Below, piece after piece: positions 1 to 7,026 of a DNA stretch of 7,026 nucleotides. The notes under the pieces were generated by a model. The model was not told where the DNA came from. It did no database searches and saw only the letters and a program-made list of their open reading frames with translations. Source of the stretch: Halanaerobiales bacterium. Lineage in GTDB: Bacteria > Bacillota_F > Halanaerobiia > DY22613. The stretch covers positions 1 through 7,026 of the forward strand of contig JAGMES010000206.1 in NCBI GenBank assembly GCA_023128035.1. Reading direction: 5' to 3'. The position numbers were made by a program, and so were the translations under genes. Position 1 is the stretch's first letter. Each line of letters begins with the position of its first letter.

Positions 1-788
1 ATATATACTTCTCCCATACAACCTCTTTTAACACTTCTTTCAACCCATAGGTCAAGAACGTAATGCAGATATACGTTAGCCAATAAAGGAGAAAGGTTCC
101 CACCTTGTGGAACTCCCTCTTTACCTTTATAAATGATCCCATCCTCCATAACTCCCGCTTTCAGAAATCTTTTGATCAGTCTCAGAATTTTACTGTCACT
201 GATTCGATGTTGGAGAAATCTCATCATCCATTCATGGTCAACATGGTCAAAGAATCCTTTGATATCTGCATCAACGATAAAATTCACTTTCTTTGTACCT
301 ATGTTTTTACTCAAATGTTTTAATGCATCATGACAACTTCGATATGGTCGAAAACCAAATGAAAAGTATAGAAAATCCTGTTCATAGATACTTTCTAGTA
401 TGATCACTAAGGTGATTTGTACAATCTTATCTTCTAGTGCTGGTATCCCTAACGGTCTTTTCTTGTCACTTCCAAGTTTAGTAATATACTTTCTTCTTAC
501 AGGCTTAGGTTTAAATGAATCAGTCTTTAATCGTTTCAGTAAATTATCTAAATTTTCATCTAGATTCTCTGCATAACTTTCCTTAGTTTCTCCATCAATG
601 CCCGGAGCTGCAGATTTCACTACTCTCCTAAAGGCTTCCTGCAAAGTTGATTTGCACATCAAGTGTGCTAACGAATTGAATTTCGCGTTTTCATCTTTAC
701 AAGCTCGTTGTGCTATGCGAGCAAGTTTTGTTCTCACCGATTCTCTGGTTCTGTGTCCAGTTAATGTGTCCCCTGCTTGCAGTTTCAT
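1..788 (-). CDS. ltrA: Group II intron-encoded reverse transcriptase/maturase (LtrA-like), N-terminal 262 residues
   Basis: This is the intron-encoded protein. It binds its own unspliced RNA, assists splicing as a maturase, and reverse-transcribes the intron during retrohoming. The ATG at 788 is the first in frame; a TGA in the same frame at 794-792 excludes a longer form. Visible motifs: APGIDG at residues 61-66, RPLGIPALEDKIVQ at 111-124 (RT1), FGFRPYRSCHDAL at about 144-156 (RT2), VDADIKGFFDHVDH at 172-185 (RT3, with Asp175 as the expected first catalytic aspartate), and GVPQGGNLSPLLANVYLHYV at 225-244 (RT4). The frame is open to the left edge with no damage. RT5 with the YxDD box, the maturase (X) domain, and any DNA-binding or HNH endonuclease domain lie outside. 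The symbol ltrA is the family name, not an ortholog call. CRISPR-associated or retron reverse transcriptases are excluded by the RT motifs and the intron context. Confidence 0.95.
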   Translation of the reverse strand, partial: MKLQAGDTLTGHRTRESVRTKLARIAQRACKDENAKFNSLAHLMCKSTLQEAFRRVVKSAAPGIDGETKESYAENLDENLDNLLKRLKTDSFKPKPVRRKYITKLGSDKKRPLGIPALEDKIVQITLVIILESIYEQDFLYFSFGFRPYRSCHDALKHLSKNIGTKKVNFIVDADIKGFFDHVDHEWMMRFLQHRISDSKILRLIKRFLKAGVMEDGIIYKGKEGVPQGGNLSPLLANVYLHYVLDLWVERSVKRGCMGEVY

Positions 789-1260
789 ATGTCATTCCCC
801 TTTCCTCCATCAGAGTTACCCGAGTTCATCAGTACTATAGGAATGTCCGACTTCCCAGAAAGCATTTGCCTCCCTTACTTCTTCAGCTTGTCGGGCATAC
901 TCTCTTACTTGAAAGACCTTCTGGGATCTCCCTGGGTTTCCGTACATTCGTAATGTTCAACTAGGTAGGGTCTTAGACCCCGAATGGGTTTATCTACACT
1001 TGCCATTTGACGCGCAGATAAATGTTGTCTTCCACGTATCCAACCGATTGGACCACCATCATTAGGTACACGATTTTCGGGGCTCAATCCCATTCACTGC
1101 TGGGTAACCAACCCAGTCAATTCTACCTCGCTGACTTTCTGTCTACGCTTAAAGAATTGTGTTACCATCAATTCCTCCAAGACTCAATACAAAGCGGATG
1201 GCTAGTCCTTACTTTGGTGGGATTCACACCCACTAGAATGTACACCCTGCCAGGACGCAC
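789..1260 (-). ncRNA. Group II intron ribozyme 5' region (domains I-III and start of IV)
   Basis: This stretch of about 470 bases has no credible gene and is explained as intron RNA. Complementary segments that can pair on the minus strand include GTCCT (1256-1252) with AGGAC (1209-1205) near the base of domain I, and a GTGGG/CCCAC hairpin with a 7-nt loop (1233-1217). There is also a CTGGGT/ACCCAG hairpin (1116-1100), a longer-range CCCCGAA (1082-1076) with TTCGGGG (984-978), and TATCT (1020-1016) with AGATA (995-991). These nested helices are what domain I of a group II ribozyme should show. I did not fold the molecule, so domain boundaries are approximate. Domain I normally carries the exon-binding sites that recognise the last bases of the 5' exon. 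Confidence 0.82.
795..808 (-). promoter_or_regulatory. Ribosome binding region of the intron-encoded protein
   Basis: On the minus strand GGAGG (808-804) lies 15 nt before the ATG at 788, and a second purine block AGGGGAA (801-795) lies 6 nt before it. The first matches the anti-Shine-Dalgarno better but is far away; the second has good spacing but a weaker match. A TGA in the maturase frame at 794-792 makes 788 the first usable ATG. Confidence 0.55.
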
Positions 1261-1968
1261 TGGAATACACAGTGTTGCACCAGCGCATAGAGGAACAAAT
1301 ACATCGCGCAAAAATGGATCAAAGGACGGGGAGATGAGCTGACTTACTTTAAAACTCTCGTCCATTCCAAATTCGCTAATCTCCCAGTCAATAAAATGCT
1401 TTAAACTCCTATGTCTTCCCAGAATAGCCTTTGGTTTTCCCGTAGATCCAGAAGTGAAGTAGATATAACAATGCTTGTTAACCATCTCTTCTGGAATTTG
1501 AAGTTCAGTGGACAGAGTACTATCAAAAGCAAAAACATCAATGTTAGTAAATTTTCCTTCATTGAATGTATTCAAATCCACCACCAGGGCATTGATTTTT
1601 CTGTTTAATCCTTCCATCATCCTATCCAGTTTTGATAACCACTTTGCCCGGGTAATCACCCAATCGGCATCTATCTTGTCCACCATTAACTGAATCCTAT
1701 TTTCCGGGAACTCATGGTCAATTGGAGCAAAGATCCCGCCTGCTTTCAAAATTCCTAAAATTGACTCAACCAATTCGATACTATTTTCCAACATTACAGG
1801 GATATTCTTATTATCATTTAGTTTTGCATAGAGAAAGTTAGCAATCTGGTTTCCTTTTGCATCAAGTTCGCGATATGACACACTATGATCACCTTGCTGA
1901 ATGGCTATTTTATCCGGGGATGTAAACGCTATATTAGAAATATGTTTATGTAAAGTATTAAAATCCAT
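1261..1968 (-). CDS. NRPS adenylation domain, N-terminal 236 residues (5' exon, interrupted by group II intron)
   Basis: This is the beginning of a second NRPS gene. The A domain would select an amino acid and activate it as the aminoacyl-AMP. Visible core motifs: SYREL at residues 31-35 (A1), LGILKAGGIFAPID at 71-84 (A2), YFTSGSTGKPKAI at 170-182 (A3, P-loop), and SFDPFLRDVF at 215-224 (A4). In A4, Asp217 corresponds to the residue that holds the substrate alpha-amino group. Only about half an A domain is present, because the frame meets the intron after Pro236; read-through ends at a TGA at 1170-1168, 30 codons inside the intron. A5-A10 and later domains must lie past the intron, outside the window. 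The start at 1968 has AGGAGG seven nt upstream. The protein starts directly with the A domain, while the upstream gene ends with a C domain, so the two proteins probably cooperate as one module. Whether it is functional depends on splicing and on the unseen 3' exon. Confidence 0.93.
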
Positions 1969-2025: not shown

Positions 2026-5000
2026 TTAAAAGAAGTCTAGATTGTCAAAATCAGCTTCAAACTCCTGAGAAAACTCATTAACCTGGTCAACTGTTCCATC
2101 CAATATAATCTGATGGATTAAAATGTCTTCCTTCTCAAGTACTGCTGCAAATACAGTTGCAAAACTATTCATGATGTTATCGATTATGTACTCATCTAAA
2201 TTGCTTTGGAAGACAGCGTTTAGGTGAATATTTTCTTTCCATCCACTGACATATAAGGTAAGTCCGTATTTTGGTTCAATTTTACCTATTTTATAAGGGG
2301 ATATGTTGAGACCATCGAGTTGTAACCTTTCTTCTCCCTGATACGGCATATAGTTAAACATTATGGAGAATAAAGATTTTCCCTGGAAGTTTAAAACCTT
2401 ATTCGCTTTTTCGTGTAAAAATTCATACGGATAATCCTGATGTTCTTGCACCTCCATCAATTCATCCCTAAGCATGTACAAGTAGTCTTTAAAAGAATCT
2501 CCATTCTCTATTTTAGTTCTGAATACCAGTACATTTAAAAATACCCCAAGCATATTCTCCAGTTCTTCATTCCCTCTACCTGCAACAGGAATTCCAATCG
2601 TTAAGTCGTTCTGATTTATGGTTTTCATTAAGATAACTTTGAAAACCGCTAAGACAAGAGTGAATTTTGTCATTTTATGATTAACACAGAATTTGTTGAT
2701 CTGTTGCGTTAGATCCCCATCTAATTCCAATCCTTTAATCCGTCCCTCAATCTTTCCTTCGGCATATCTAGTTGCAGGAAGTTCAGTGTAGACAAAATTC
2801 TCCAGTCTGCTGTCCCAGAACTGAGTCAATTTCTGTATCTTTGGCGATTCCATCAGTGAATTATGCCATGATGCATAGTCTTTGTATTGAACCCTTAGTG
2901 GAGGCAATAATTTGCTTTCGTACAGACTTACAAAATCTCTGGTGAAAATATTCGTGGAAATTCCATCACAAATGATGTGATGGATGTCAAACAACAGTAT
3001 GTTTTTTTGCTCCTGTAACTTAATAAGATTTACTCTAAACAGTGGGGCATGATTCAAATCGAAAGGCTGGATAAGTTGCTTGATGAGGTCGTCGACGTTT
3101 TTCTCATCTGCTTCAATATAGTTAATTGTAATGTTAGCTCTCTGATAAATTCTCTGTACGGGCACTCCATCAATTAACTCTAAGGTGGTTCTTAGCACCT
3201 CATGACGTTCCCCTAATCTTTGAACCGCCTTTTCTAATCGCGCTTTATCCAGTTCACCTTCAAGGACAATAGCTGCTGGCATATTGTATGCAGTAGAGTT
3301 TTGATCCATCTGCCACATAACATAGATTCTCTTTTGAGAAGATGAAACCGGATAGTAGTCCATCTCTCCTAAAGGTTCGATTGCAGTATACATGTTTTGC
3401 TCCACCTGGTGAATATACTGAACCAATTCTTTTACCGTCGGCGATTTAAAGACCTGACTAAATGGTACTTCTACATTTAATTCCTTATGAATCTTTGAAA
3501 TCAGGATTGTGGCCTTTAATGAATGACCGCCCATTTCGAAGAAATCATGATTTACTCCAATGCCTTCTAACTCCAATACTTCTTCCCAAATTTCCACTAA
3601 TTTTTCTTCAACTTTATTAGTTGGTGCTACATACTCTACTCCAGTGTCAATGGCACCTTCAGGTTCCGGCAAAACTTTCCGATCTATTTTTCCATTATTA
3701 GTAAGAGGTAATTTCTCCAACTGCATAAAACGCGCTGGAACCATATAATCTGGTAGTTCTTTGGAAAGATGAGTTCTTAACTCCGCCACTGTGATCTCTC
3801 TTTCAGCAACAATGTATGCACATAGATACATGGCTCCTTTGGAATCGACCCGGTCGATTACAACGGCTTCTTTTATCTCGCCATGCTTTAACAATTGTAA
3901 TTCAATCTCTCCTGGCTCTACTCTATACCCTCTCAACTTAACTTGATTATCAATTCTACCGTGGAAAGTAATATTTCCGTCAGGTTGCCAACTTGCTAAG
4001 TCACCGGTCCGATAGATTCGCTCGTCAGACAAAAATGGATGTGAGACAAATTTTTCATTTGTGAGGTCCGGTCTATTAAGATACCCCCTGGCTAGACCAA
4101 CTCCTGCCACACAAAGCTCTCCTGGTACACCTACAGGAGTGGGATTATTATCACGATCCAGAATATATACCTGGGTATTATAAATCGGCTTTCCGATGGT
4201 AGTTTTAGATATTTCGCATCTTGAAACCACCGAATCTACGGTCCCCTCAGTTGGTCCATAGTGATTAGTTAACTGATATCCCAGGGAAAGTATTTGATCC
4301 TTCAAAGTATCCTCTAGTTTATCCCCGGCAACTAGAACTCGATCCAGAGTTTCTGGTTTCTCGTCCTGAGTTAAAAGTTCTTTCAAGGTCATAGGTACAA
4401 ACTGAGCAATATTGATCTTATTCTCACGAATAAATCTAATAAATTCTCTTCTATCCAGGGCATGCTCTTTTCTAATAATGCAAATAGTTGCACCAAAAAC
4501 TAGAGGTGGAAAGATTTCGACGATAGACGCGTCAAAAGCGACATTACCCATATGGACAATCCTTCGACCTTTCTCCATAGAAAACATATCATGATAGAAC
4601 TTAGAGATATTAACCACACCCTTATGTTCTAGCATTACTCCTTTTGGCTTACCTGTGGAACCGGAAGTGTACATTATATAGGCCAGATCATTGGGAGTAT
4701 TTATATTTTTTAGATTTTCTCCATTTCCCTTATAGGTACTCTGATCTCCGAGGTCAATAATCTGTCCATCAAAATCAAGCTTGTCGGTCAACTGTTGATG
4801 AGTGAGCAAGATTCTGGCATTGCTATTCTCCAACATATACTTGATCCTCTCCAGTGGATAATCGGGGTCTATTGGCATATATGCTCCGCCAGCTTTAAGT
4901 ACACCTAGAATACCGATCACCATATCAATCGAACGTTCAGCCATAATACCGAGAATCTCATCTCTGGTAACTTCCATTCCTCTTAACAAATGAGCCACTT

Positions 5001-7020
5001 GGTTTGTCCTTATGTTTAATTCACGATAGGTCATCTTTACACCCTCATAAATTAAAGCAATCTCATCGGGTGCCTGTTCAGTCCGTTGCACCACCAGTTC
5101 ATGTATGGTTTTCTCTCGCGGAAAATCCATTTCTGTATCATTGAACTCATACAGTACCTGTTTTTTCTCTGCTTCAGAGAGGACATTAATCTGTGCAATT
5201 ATCACTTTCGGCATTTCAGTGATTCTTTTTAAGATATTTACATAATGGTCGGCTAATCTTTTAATTGTCTGCTTTTTAAAGAGATCAACACAATACTCGA
5301 AACTGAACCGCAACCCATCAATTTCTTCAATGGCATCTAGGGTAATATCGAATTTTGAAATGTTAATCTCTATATCACATAGTGTTAAACATAAACCATC
5401 AGCTTGTATTTTATCATCTCTTAAATTTTGCAATGAAAAGGCCAAGTCAAATAAAGGATTCCGGCTGAGATCTCTCTTCAACTTCAGTTTCTCTACCAGT
5501 TCTTCAAACGGATAATCTTGATTGTCAAAGGCTTGTAAAGTGTTCTCTCTAACCTCACTAAGGAAATCCAAAAACATCTTATCACCAGTTGGCGTATTTC
5601 TTAGTGTCAGCATATTTACGAACATACCAATAATATTTTGCAGATCAGCATGACGCCTACCAGCTATTGGAGAACCTATGACAAAATCATTTTGTCCAGT
5701 ATATTTGTACAAAAGCACATAATAAGCTGACAGCAGTAACATATACAAAGATGAACCTGTTTCAACTGCCAGTTTTCGTAGTAGAGTCGCCAACTCTCCA
5801 TCAATCGCTATCTCAATCCGATCTCCCTTAAAGCTCTGAATGGATGGACGCGGGTAATCGGTTAGCATGTTAAGTGCTGGAATTTTACCCACAAATGTAT
5901 CTAACCAGAACTTCTCCTGCTTTTTGATAACATTGTTTTTGAAGAATTCATTCTGCCATACAGAGAAGTCCTTATACTGGATTCGTAACTCAGGGAGATG
6001 TCTATTCTCATACAGAGCAACAAACTCCTTAATCAGACGATCCATAGATACTCCGTCAGAAATAATATGATGCATATCAAAGAGCAAAAAGTGCTTCTCC
6101 TCCGTCAATTTAGCCAGCCCGACGCGCAACAGAGGAGGCTGACTTAAATCAAATGGGTGAACAAAACATTTTATTACCTCGTCGATTCCATTCTCTGTAG
6201 TAGATATGTAGTTAATTTTAAAATCTAAATCTTGATGTATTATTTGCACAACCTGATCATCTACAACAGAAAAGGAAGTTCGCAGAGTTTCATGTCTTTG
6301 TACGAGTGCCTTAAAGATTTGCTCAAATCGTTCTCTGTCAAGATTACCTTCCATCAGCACTGCACCAGGCATATTGTAACTTACTCCATCCCCTTCATAC
6401 TGACACTGTAAGTACAATCTTTTTTGAGCCGATGAAGTAGGATAAAATTCTTGCTCCTCAACGGGTTCAATGGACGAATATACTGTCTCAGAACAACATG
6501 CGAAATATTGCGTAAGATCCTTGATGGTCGGGCGTTTAAAGATTTCACTTAATGGTACATCAATATTTAAAGTTTTATGGATTTCAGAGGTCAACACAAT
6601 AGCCTTTAGGGAGTGACCGCCTAGATCAAAATAGTTATCATTGATTCCAATCTGCTCCCGACCTAATACCTCTTGCCAAATTTGTACTAGTTTTTCTTCC
6701 ATCTCATTACGGGGAGATTCGTATTCCGTACCTAATACCATACTACCTTCTAGTTCCGGAAGTGCCTTGCGATCTACCTTTCCATTTGCATTTAATGGCA
6801 GTTGATTTAACTGTACGAAGCAGGAAGGAACCATATACTCTGGTAATTGATTCAACAAAAATTTCCTTAACTCTCCTACCGTAACTTCCTGATCTGCCAC
6901 TACATAAGCACATAAGTATTGGACTCCCGCACCATCTTTCCTATTTAGGACAACCGCTTCTTTGATGGCAGGGTAGTTTAATAACTGATGTTCGATTTCT
7001 CCTAGTGCAGCATAGCTTAA
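2026..7020 (-). CDS. Nonribosomal peptide synthetase, partial (A-C-terminal part)-T-C-A-T-C
   Basis: This multimodular enzyme extends a peptide thioester on carrier domains. Residues are numbered from the codon at 7020. Residues 1-95 are the end of an A domain (LPEYMVP; NGKVDR at 79-84 with the A10 lysine). A T domain follows, with phosphopantetheine Ser137 in LGGHS. C domain 1 spans about 190-620 (SSAQKRLYL; HHIISDG at 317-323; NQDYPFE; RDLSRNPLF), an LCL-like type. A complete A domain spans about 638-1120: YTSGSTGKPKG 784-794, FDAS 829-832, NHYGPTE 919-925, YRTGDL 1003-1008, GRIDNQVKLRGYR from 1021, NGKIDR 1109-1114. T domain 2 has Ser1167 in MGGHS. C domain 2 spans about 1220-1640 (HHIICDG 1347-1353) and is followed by an acidic, Phe-rich tail to residue 1664. 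No epimerase, methylase or thioesterase is seen. The true start lies beyond the right edge; the GTG at 6900 is internal to a conserved domain. A TAA at 7023-7021 and a damaged A8 motif sit at that edge, meaning either a broken gene or a sequence/assembly error. The product is unknown. Confidence 0.95.
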   Translation of the reverse strand, partial: LSYAALGEIEHQLLNYPAIKEAVVLNRKDGAGVQYLCAYVVADQEVTVGELRKFLLNQLPEYMVPSCFVQLNQLPLNANGKVDRKALPELEGSMVLGTEYESPRNEMEEKLVQIWQEVLGREQIGINDNYFDLGGHSLKAIVLTSEIHKTLNIDVPLSEIFKRPTIKDLTQYFACCSETVYSSIEPVEEQEFYPTSSAQKRLYLQCQYEGDGVSYNMPGAVLMEGNLDRERFEQIFKALVQRHETLRTSFSVVDDQVVQIIHQDLDFKINYISTTENGIDEVIKCFVHPFDLSQPPLLRVGLAKLTEEKHFLLFDMHHIISDGVSMDRLIKEFVALYENRHLPELRIQYKDFSVWQNEFFKNNVIKKQEKFWLDTFVGKIPALNMLTDYPRPSIQSFKGDRIEIAIDGELATLLRKLAVETGSSLYMLLLSAYYVLLYKYTGQNDFVIGSPIAGRRHADLQNIIGMFVNMLTLRNTPTGDKMFLDFLSEVRENTLQAFDNQDYPFEELVEKLKLKRDLSRNPLFDLAFSLQNLRDDKIQADGLCLTLCDIEINISKFDITLDAIEEIDGLRFSFEYCVDLFKKQTIKRLADHYVNILKRITEMPKVIIAQINVLSEAEKKQVLYEFNDTEMDFPREKTIHELVVQRTEQAPDEIALIYEGVKMTYRELNIRTNQVAHLLRGMEVTRDEILGIMAERSIDMVIGILGVLKAGGAYMPIDPDYPLERIKYMLENSNARILLTHQQLTDKLDFDGQIIDLGDQSTYKGNGENLKNINTPNDLAYIMYTSGSTGKPKGVMLEHKGVVNISKFYHDMFSMEKGRRIVHMGNVAFDASIVEIFPPLVFGATICIIRKEHALDRREFIRFIRENKINIAQFVPMTLKELLTQDEKPETLDRVLVAGDKLEDTLKDQILSLGYQLTNHYGPTEGTVDSVVSRCEISKTTIGKPIYNTQVYILDRDNNPTPVGVPGELCVAGVGLARGYLNRPDLTNEKFVSHPFLSDERIYRTGDLASWQPDGNITFHGRIDNQVKLRGYRVEPGEIELQLLKHGEIKEAVVIDRVDSKGAMYLCAYIVAEREITVAELRTHLSKELPDYMVPARFMQLEKLPLTNNGKIDRKVLPEPEGAIDTGVEYVAPTNKVEEKLVEIWEEVLELEGIGVNHDFFEMGGHSLKATILISKIHKELNVEVPFSQVFKSPTVKELVQYIHQVEQNMYTAIEPLGEMDYYPVSSSQKRIYVMWQMDQNSTAYNMPAAIVLEGELDKARLEKAVQRLGERHEVLRTTLELIDGVPVQRIYQRANITINYIEADEKNVDDLIKQLIQPFDLNHAPLFRVNLIKLQEQKNILLFDIHHIICDGISTNIFTRDFVSLYESKLLPPLRVQYKDYASWHNSLMESPKIQKLTQFWDSRLENFVYTELPATRYAEGKIEGRIKGLELDGDLTQQINKFCVNHKMTKFTLVLAVFKVILMKTINQNDLTIGIPVAGRGNEELENMLGVFLNVLVFRTKIENGDSFKDYLYMLRDELMEVQEHQDYPYEFLHEKANKVLNFQGKSLFSIMFNYMPYQGEERLQLDGLNISPYKIGKIEPKYGLTLYVSGWKENIHLNAVFQSNLDEYIIDNIMNSFATVFAAVLEKEDILIHQIILDGTVDQVNEFSQEFEADFDNLDFF

Positions 7021-7026
7021 TTAAAC

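Follow-up and report, generated by a model that had tools for sequence, protein, structure and literature searches.

The window, by which we mean the whole stretch of DNA analysed here (7,026 nt, contig JAGMES010000206.1 of a Halanaerobiales bacterium), carries two adjacent NRPS genes, the second of which is entered by a group II intron that runs off the end of the record. The main features are as follows.

2026..7026, minus strand: upstream NRPS gene, recognised by profile matches, open at the record end
1261..1968, minus strand: 5' exon (M...GATLCIP, 236 codons), where an NRPS gene opens with its adenylation domain
1..1260, minus strand: first 1,260 nt of a group II intron, up to the record end
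968..1226, minus strand: conserved ribozyme core, Rfam model match to RF02005 (group-II-D1D4-6)
3..788, minus strand: intron-encoded reverse transcriptase/maturase (IEP), first 262 codons, open at the record end

The upstream NRPS gene encodes two carrier, two condensation and one adenylation domain (the order of the second domain copies is a presumed one) and ends in a condensation domain. Its last 475 residues are closest to proteins of Halanaerobiales MAGs, with 56-57% identity. Because the next gene starts with an adenylation (A) domain, a single module is split over two proteins at this point (1961-2040), and seven aligned relatives of that A domain likewise begin with a methionine at the same place. 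Between the two genes, at 1981-2018, lies a hairpin of 17 bp with a loop of 4 bases; the ribosome-binding site of the A-domain gene follows immediately. The 66-nt stretch folded around the hairpin gives -31.7 kcal/mol (z -7.1). The gene strand has no T run downstream of the hairpin, which may serve in mRNA stability or processing between the NRPS genes.

A group II intron at a codon boundary

The A-domain gene starts with an ATG at 1968 (minus strand), preceded by AGGAGGTG, and its frame is free of stops for 236 codons, to ...FVPLCAGATLCIP (AGATLCIP). The exon matches the first part of both PF00501 AMP-binding (E 7.1e-35, profile positions 7-236 of 384) and TIGR01733 AA-adenyl-dom (E 1e-40, positions 1-191 of 409); the second score lies below the whole-domain cut-off because the record holds the N-terminal part only. 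The best PDB match is linear gramicidin synthase subunit A.

Across the junction the minus strand reads ...GCAACACTGTGTATTCCA|GTGCGTCCTGGCAGGG, with the last exon base at 1261 and the first intron base at 1260. The first-pass annotation had placed GTGCG at 1260 immediately 3' of the proline codon of ATLCIP, and this is what the minus strand carries. The motif agrees with the GUGYG criterion for group II introns and marks the intron 5' end. When the 5' ends of the window intron and eight relatives were aligned, G(T/A)(G/A)CG stood at the same place in seven of the eight, L016 being the exception.

Inside the intron, the RF02005 model matches over its full length at 1226-968 on the minus strand (133.9 bits, E 7.7e-39, model positions 1-225 of 225). 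The IEP reading frame starts at 788 and runs without a stop through 262 codons, still open at position 3. Residues 47-253 of these 262 match group_II_RT_mat (TIGR04416) with an E value of 4.4e-77. The score of 259.6 bits is below the whole-protein cut-off of 300 because the frame is cut by the record end; the full-length relative P0002 reaches 374.5. The best named relatives of the IEP come from Halonatronum saccharophilum (72% identity) and Orenia (70%), and the closest IEP relatives have 453 aa. The claim of a group II intron lying in sense within an NRPS A domain is borne out.

The record ends inside the intron reading frame, and domains V/VI, the YADD motif of the reverse transcriptase (RT), the 3' splice site and the 3' exon would lie beyond it, as would the bulged A and the 3' AY end of a group II intron. 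Intron lengths in relatives (1,995 nt in L001, 2,044 nt in L109 and 1,930 nt in L002) suggest that about 670-785 nt of the window's intron follow, and in this part the relatives carry RF00029 matches and a conserved 3' end. The 5' exon, the ribozyme core and the IEP frame are without decay over the length that is present.

Two other genomes have multiple matches to such elements. The L001 region of Halonatronum saccharophilum (2093-9731) holds several RF02003, RF00029 and RF02005 matches within 8 kb, which suggests nested or tandem insertion. Genome G029 (3.9 Mb) has nineteen RF02005 matches, many with equal score, perhaps from a recent burst.

Seven A-domain relatives, 35-52% identical, were picked from 119 other matches listed. 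All seven extend beyond the junction, P0244 by only about 10 residues, and the junction proline is invariant in all eight aligned rows, the window included. The residue after C-x-P is E in P0242, P0243, P0244 and P0247, K in P0245, D in P0248 and P in P0249. Because the relatives continue after the same invariant proline, the insertion sits at a codon boundary on the 5' side, as had been proposed, and a 3' exon beginning with the next codon would restore the A domain. As to an uninterrupted allele, these proteins do run past the junction, but a close strain's copy of this very gene is not among them. A scan with the exon over genome_contigs returned no close relative, the A domains of 59 genomes of the class gave a best match of 39% identity from a different gene, and plasmid and phage records, queried with just 40 exon bases, returned intron relatives only. 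Among those 59 genomes G024 stands out, with 51 A-domain matches and frames up to 10,237 codons. The same intron was sought in this NRPS-rich genome and rejected, as it gave distant RT matches only and no RF02005 match.

The insertion falls between the A4 and A5 motifs of the A domain. In an alignment to gramicidin S synthetase 1 (1amu_A), exon residue 234 lies on chain residue 252. In the usual numbering of the ten specificity residues, three would precede the intron and seven follow it, so neither half alone should form the substrate pocket.

In unspliced mRNA the A-domain frame runs 30 codons into the intron to a stop at 1168, for a product of 266 residues. One and the same sequence of this readthrough protein is recorded for two contigs (the longer has 13,608 bases); the contigs may share one sample, so that their independence is not clear.

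Exon recognition and imperfect pairing

We located the exon-recognition sequences by scoring intron columns against exon positions across relatives. The wider set, left uncleaned and including at least one wrong start (L015), comprised 49 relatives, of which 48 have letters at the columns in question. Its six top pairs matched consecutive intron columns to exon positions -1 to -6, with Watson-Crick pairs in 32-37 of 48 relatives at each position. The same six pairs came first in a cleaned set of 21, where 20, 21, 19, 20, 20 and 20 relatives pair. By this covariation, the six columns and exon positions -1 to -6 are the predicted EBS1-IBS1. The next signal in the cleaned set, 17 of 21 at -9, marks EBS2-IBS2. 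L002 has the EBS2 letters TCGTGT, which pair 6/6 with its own exon, and the window has the same letters; resting on one column and on L002, the EBS2 assignment is less firm than that of EBS1. A candidate EBS2 in a hairpin near 1110 was rejected, since covariation pointed to the stretch before EBS1.

A further intron column is complementary to the opening base of the 3' exon in 19 of 20 relatives, the other forming a wobble. This count was reached after we had moved the ends of L001, L109 and L002 by one base, a shift chosen after seeing the first result at the same column (32 of 36 rows, duplicates included, plus one wobble). These three introns had been read as ending in CTACTTAC, which was rejected because EBS3 then failed in L001 and L109; the shifted end, CTACTTACC, is equal in length to the CTACTCGAC of the others. 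In 2,000 shuffles of the exon bases, no column reached more than 17. The column points to 3'-exon recognition of the IBS3-EBS3 kind, which together with an EBS2 presumably fits a IIB intron best. Passages of PMC4424553 describe IBS3-EBS3 recognition for IIB and IIC introns. As EBS3 of the window is a T, the first 3' exon base is predicted to be A, or G by wobble as in L037. Such a start would be compatible with a Lys-type codon (P0245) or with the Glu/Asp that five of the seven A-domain relatives carry.

The recognition elements assigned in the window are listed below.

1037..1042, minus strand: EBS1, TGGATA, by covariation with IBS1 in relatives
1068..1073, minus strand: EBS2, TCGTGT, by the -9 covariation column and identity to the L002 letters
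975..975, minus strand: EBS3, T, from the column that covaries across 20 relatives with the base opening the 3' exon
1261..1266, minus strand: IBS1, ATTCCA, the last six bases of the 5' exon, with 4/6 pairs to EBS1
1270..1275, minus strand: IBS2, ACACTG, with 4/6 Watson-Crick pairs and one wobble to EBS2

The window's own site pairs imperfectly. EBS1 and IBS1 form four pairs at -1 to -4 and are mismatched at -5 and -6, the fewest pairs among the 24 introns compared. In the 23 relatives, some of them near-copies, 18 pair at 6/6 and five at 5/6 (wobble counted), a tally favoured by the exclusion of L053, whose start (7501) is at the right distance from its RT and whose supposed EBS1 loop, possibly misread, pairs 2/6 with the exon. 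L016, with an open run of 338 codons, was excluded because its start (1019), about 7 kb away from the RT, was judged a chance motif, and deltaproteobacterial-type loci such as L006, L007 and L033 were left out of the EBS1 count as the loop is invariant there.

With one T of the TT bulged, 7/7 positions pair with EBS1, which only 19 of 200,000 random window-site draws match. The computed EBS1 duplex with the bulged T has an energy of -5.7 kcal/mol, within the -4.1 to -10.4 kcal/mol of 17 relatives, four of which are weaker. EBS1 and EBS2 together make 8/12 Watson-Crick pairs (12/12 in L002). Only 48 of 11,502 other sites outside the intron reach at least 8 pairs, 12 of them 9, which puts the window site in the top 0.4%. 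The junction is thus real, on the aligned 5' motif, the readthrough protein on two contigs and the pairing of the exon with the EBS sequences.

An assembly chimera, in which the end of a multi-copy intron was misjoined to an NRPS contig, is therefore very improbable: assemblies often break at repeated elements, this contig ends inside the intron and the IEP cluster lists 12 member sequences, but the listing of two contigs for the readthrough protein, the in-register pairing of both EBS1 and EBS2 with the exon, and the exact coincidence of the junction with GTGCG and with a codon boundary all speak against it.

We also considered whether the site had been misread. A sequencing error as the source of the extra T in TATTCCA, relative to EBS1, was rejected on account of the proline that is invariant in eight A domains and of the junction protein on two contigs; because the T keeps the conserved proline in frame, we take it as native sequence. 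A shifted 5' splice site, as in C.te.I1 of C. tetani, was rejected too: by eye, the 20 exon bases upstream hold no better EBS1 match, and the canonical site is already in the right phase.

The insertion site among relatives

To see how unusual this address is, we screened 84 relatives' loci, several of them copies from a single genome; 14 were dropped for want of upstream DNA, which left 70. A mechanical screen found a sense ORF of at least 100 codons ending near the intron start in 18 of the 70. In only one of the 70, L009 (6957-7643), does a sense open frame enter the intron, after 193 codons; its host frame has a DUF3987 match below the cut-off (E 0.01). L057, where the boundary was not located, counts as one further ambiguous locus. 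The boundary of L070 was placed from its RF02005 position, and L071, L072, L075 and L077 were judged by their likeness to L070 alone.

At twelve of the 70 loci (L001, L003, L007, L011, L017, L030, L038, L041, L065, L069, L070 and L076), a sense ORF of at least 100 codons stops before the intron boundary, roughly 10-90 nt upstream. These look as if the lineage often lands just after genes, an impression formed with no comparison with chance.

A second sample came from the same 59 genomes of the class, 25 of which have an RF02005 match. It comprised 30 RF02005 loci, 13 of them with no recognisable 5' end. None of the 17 loci with such an end has a sense open run of 60 codons there; three of them had already been sampled, and the upstream DNA of L154 is limited to 208 bases. 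Together, the one case among 70 and none among 17 indicate that sense insertion inside genes is rare in the lineage as sampled. The suggestion that a biosynthetic core gene is a less common location for such an intron thus holds for its own lineage in these screens.

Origin, splicing and known introns

We propose that the NRPS gene received, in sense and by reverse splicing at an off-consensus site, a mobile, IEP-encoding IIB-type intron of the RF02005 lineage, a reading to which we give a probability of about 0.75. Insertion by reverse splicing would have taken place in the sense strand, between two codons just after GATLCIP, and pairing of EBS1 and EBS2 with the exon may have guided it. Because the exon match is imperfect, the event looks like off-consensus (ectopic) retrotransposition, and insertion at a partly matching site would be the simplest history. 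A full A domain would then require the intron to splice, while unspliced mRNA would yield the 266-residue truncated A domain.

On the sequence features at hand, splicing in vivo is somewhat better than an even bet, and it presupposes an intact 3' half, which the intron probably has. Splicing may be poor, because IBS1 pairs at 4/6, below all 23 relatives. The same pairing, the weakest EBS1-IBS1 of the 24 introns compared, is what gives weight to the strongest alternative, that the insertion is the same but splicing-dead or 3'-truncated, leaving the downstream synthetase a pseudogene with a short, inactive A-domain stub. Most bacterial group II intron copies are truncated or inactivated, according to passages of PMC4424553, and genes of secondary metabolism would be dispensable. 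However, the 5' exon, ribozyme core and IEP frame are undecayed as far as the record goes, and the junction pairing energy is inside the range of the relatives. We regard a dead intron as a serious possibility, though one with the odds against it.

A stronger claim would be that selection has kept the intron as a switch that controls peptide production through splicing. An intron in sense, seated between codons of a core biosynthetic gene, would suit such a role. So would the weakened pairing, since passages of PMC6003770 report that group II introns lower host-gene expression through EBS-IBS pairing with the spliced mRNA. Yet none of the seven aligned A-domain relatives is broken here, so nothing shows retention by selection, and we consider a switch unlikely. 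If it were one, loose EBS1/EBS2 pairing would allow splicing and still spare the joined mRNA from re-cutting by the free intron, and peptide output would track splicing efficiency, set by maturase level, magnesium and salt. The tuning of peptide synthesis by splicing that the first-pass annotation raised is speculation.

Whatever its fate, a sense, codon-boundary copy with imperfect pairing in a large biosynthetic gene offers a natural test of how far EBS-IBS mismatches are tolerated in insertion and splicing. It would likewise bear on the notion that weaker pairing does less harm to the spliced mRNA. The copy is also a caution for genome mining, as ORF callers would call this synthetase broken.

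The intron is of a known kind in an unusual host gene. What is new here is the location of EBS1 and EBS3 by covariation (EBS2 less firmly) and the imperfect pairing at the site. Passages of PMC4424553 and PMC6003770 describe bacterial group II introns as generally lying outside housekeeping genes, while the former also reports introns inside bacterial genes, some of them housekeeping. A natural group II intron inside an NRPS gene was absent from the literature matches listed, which is weak evidence, subscription journals having been mostly outside the scope of the search. The group II intron of the cereulide megaplasmid is placed by the excerpted text of PMC1459170 downstream of the NRPS locus, not inside an NRPS gene.

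The nearest relatives are L001, L109, L164 and L002 of the RF02005 lineage, which have the 5' end and ribozyme family in common with the window intron. The IEPs of L001, L109 and L002 are 70-72% identical to that of the window, and L001 and L109 share its EBS3 T. They differ in address and fit: none of the four has a sense open run of more than 40 codons at its 5' side, whereas the window copy lies inside an ORF, and L001, L109 and L002 pair 6/6 at IBS1 (L164 has the IBS1 letters of L001 and L109), against 4/6 in the window.

Two described introns share the position of the window's intron inside a protein gene. Ll.LtrB likewise encodes an IEP and interrupts ltrB, a relaxase gene of Lactococcus lactis that yields its product only through splicing (PMC6003770); its host is a conjugation gene and its splicing has been measured, whereas the window intron is known from sequence. 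In a surface-layer protein gene of Clostridium tetani, the joined frame around C.te.I1 depends on EBS1-IBS1 pairing, as described in PMC3919590. C.te.I1 uses a 5' splice site moved upstream by 8 nt, while in the window the canonical boundary is already in the right phase.
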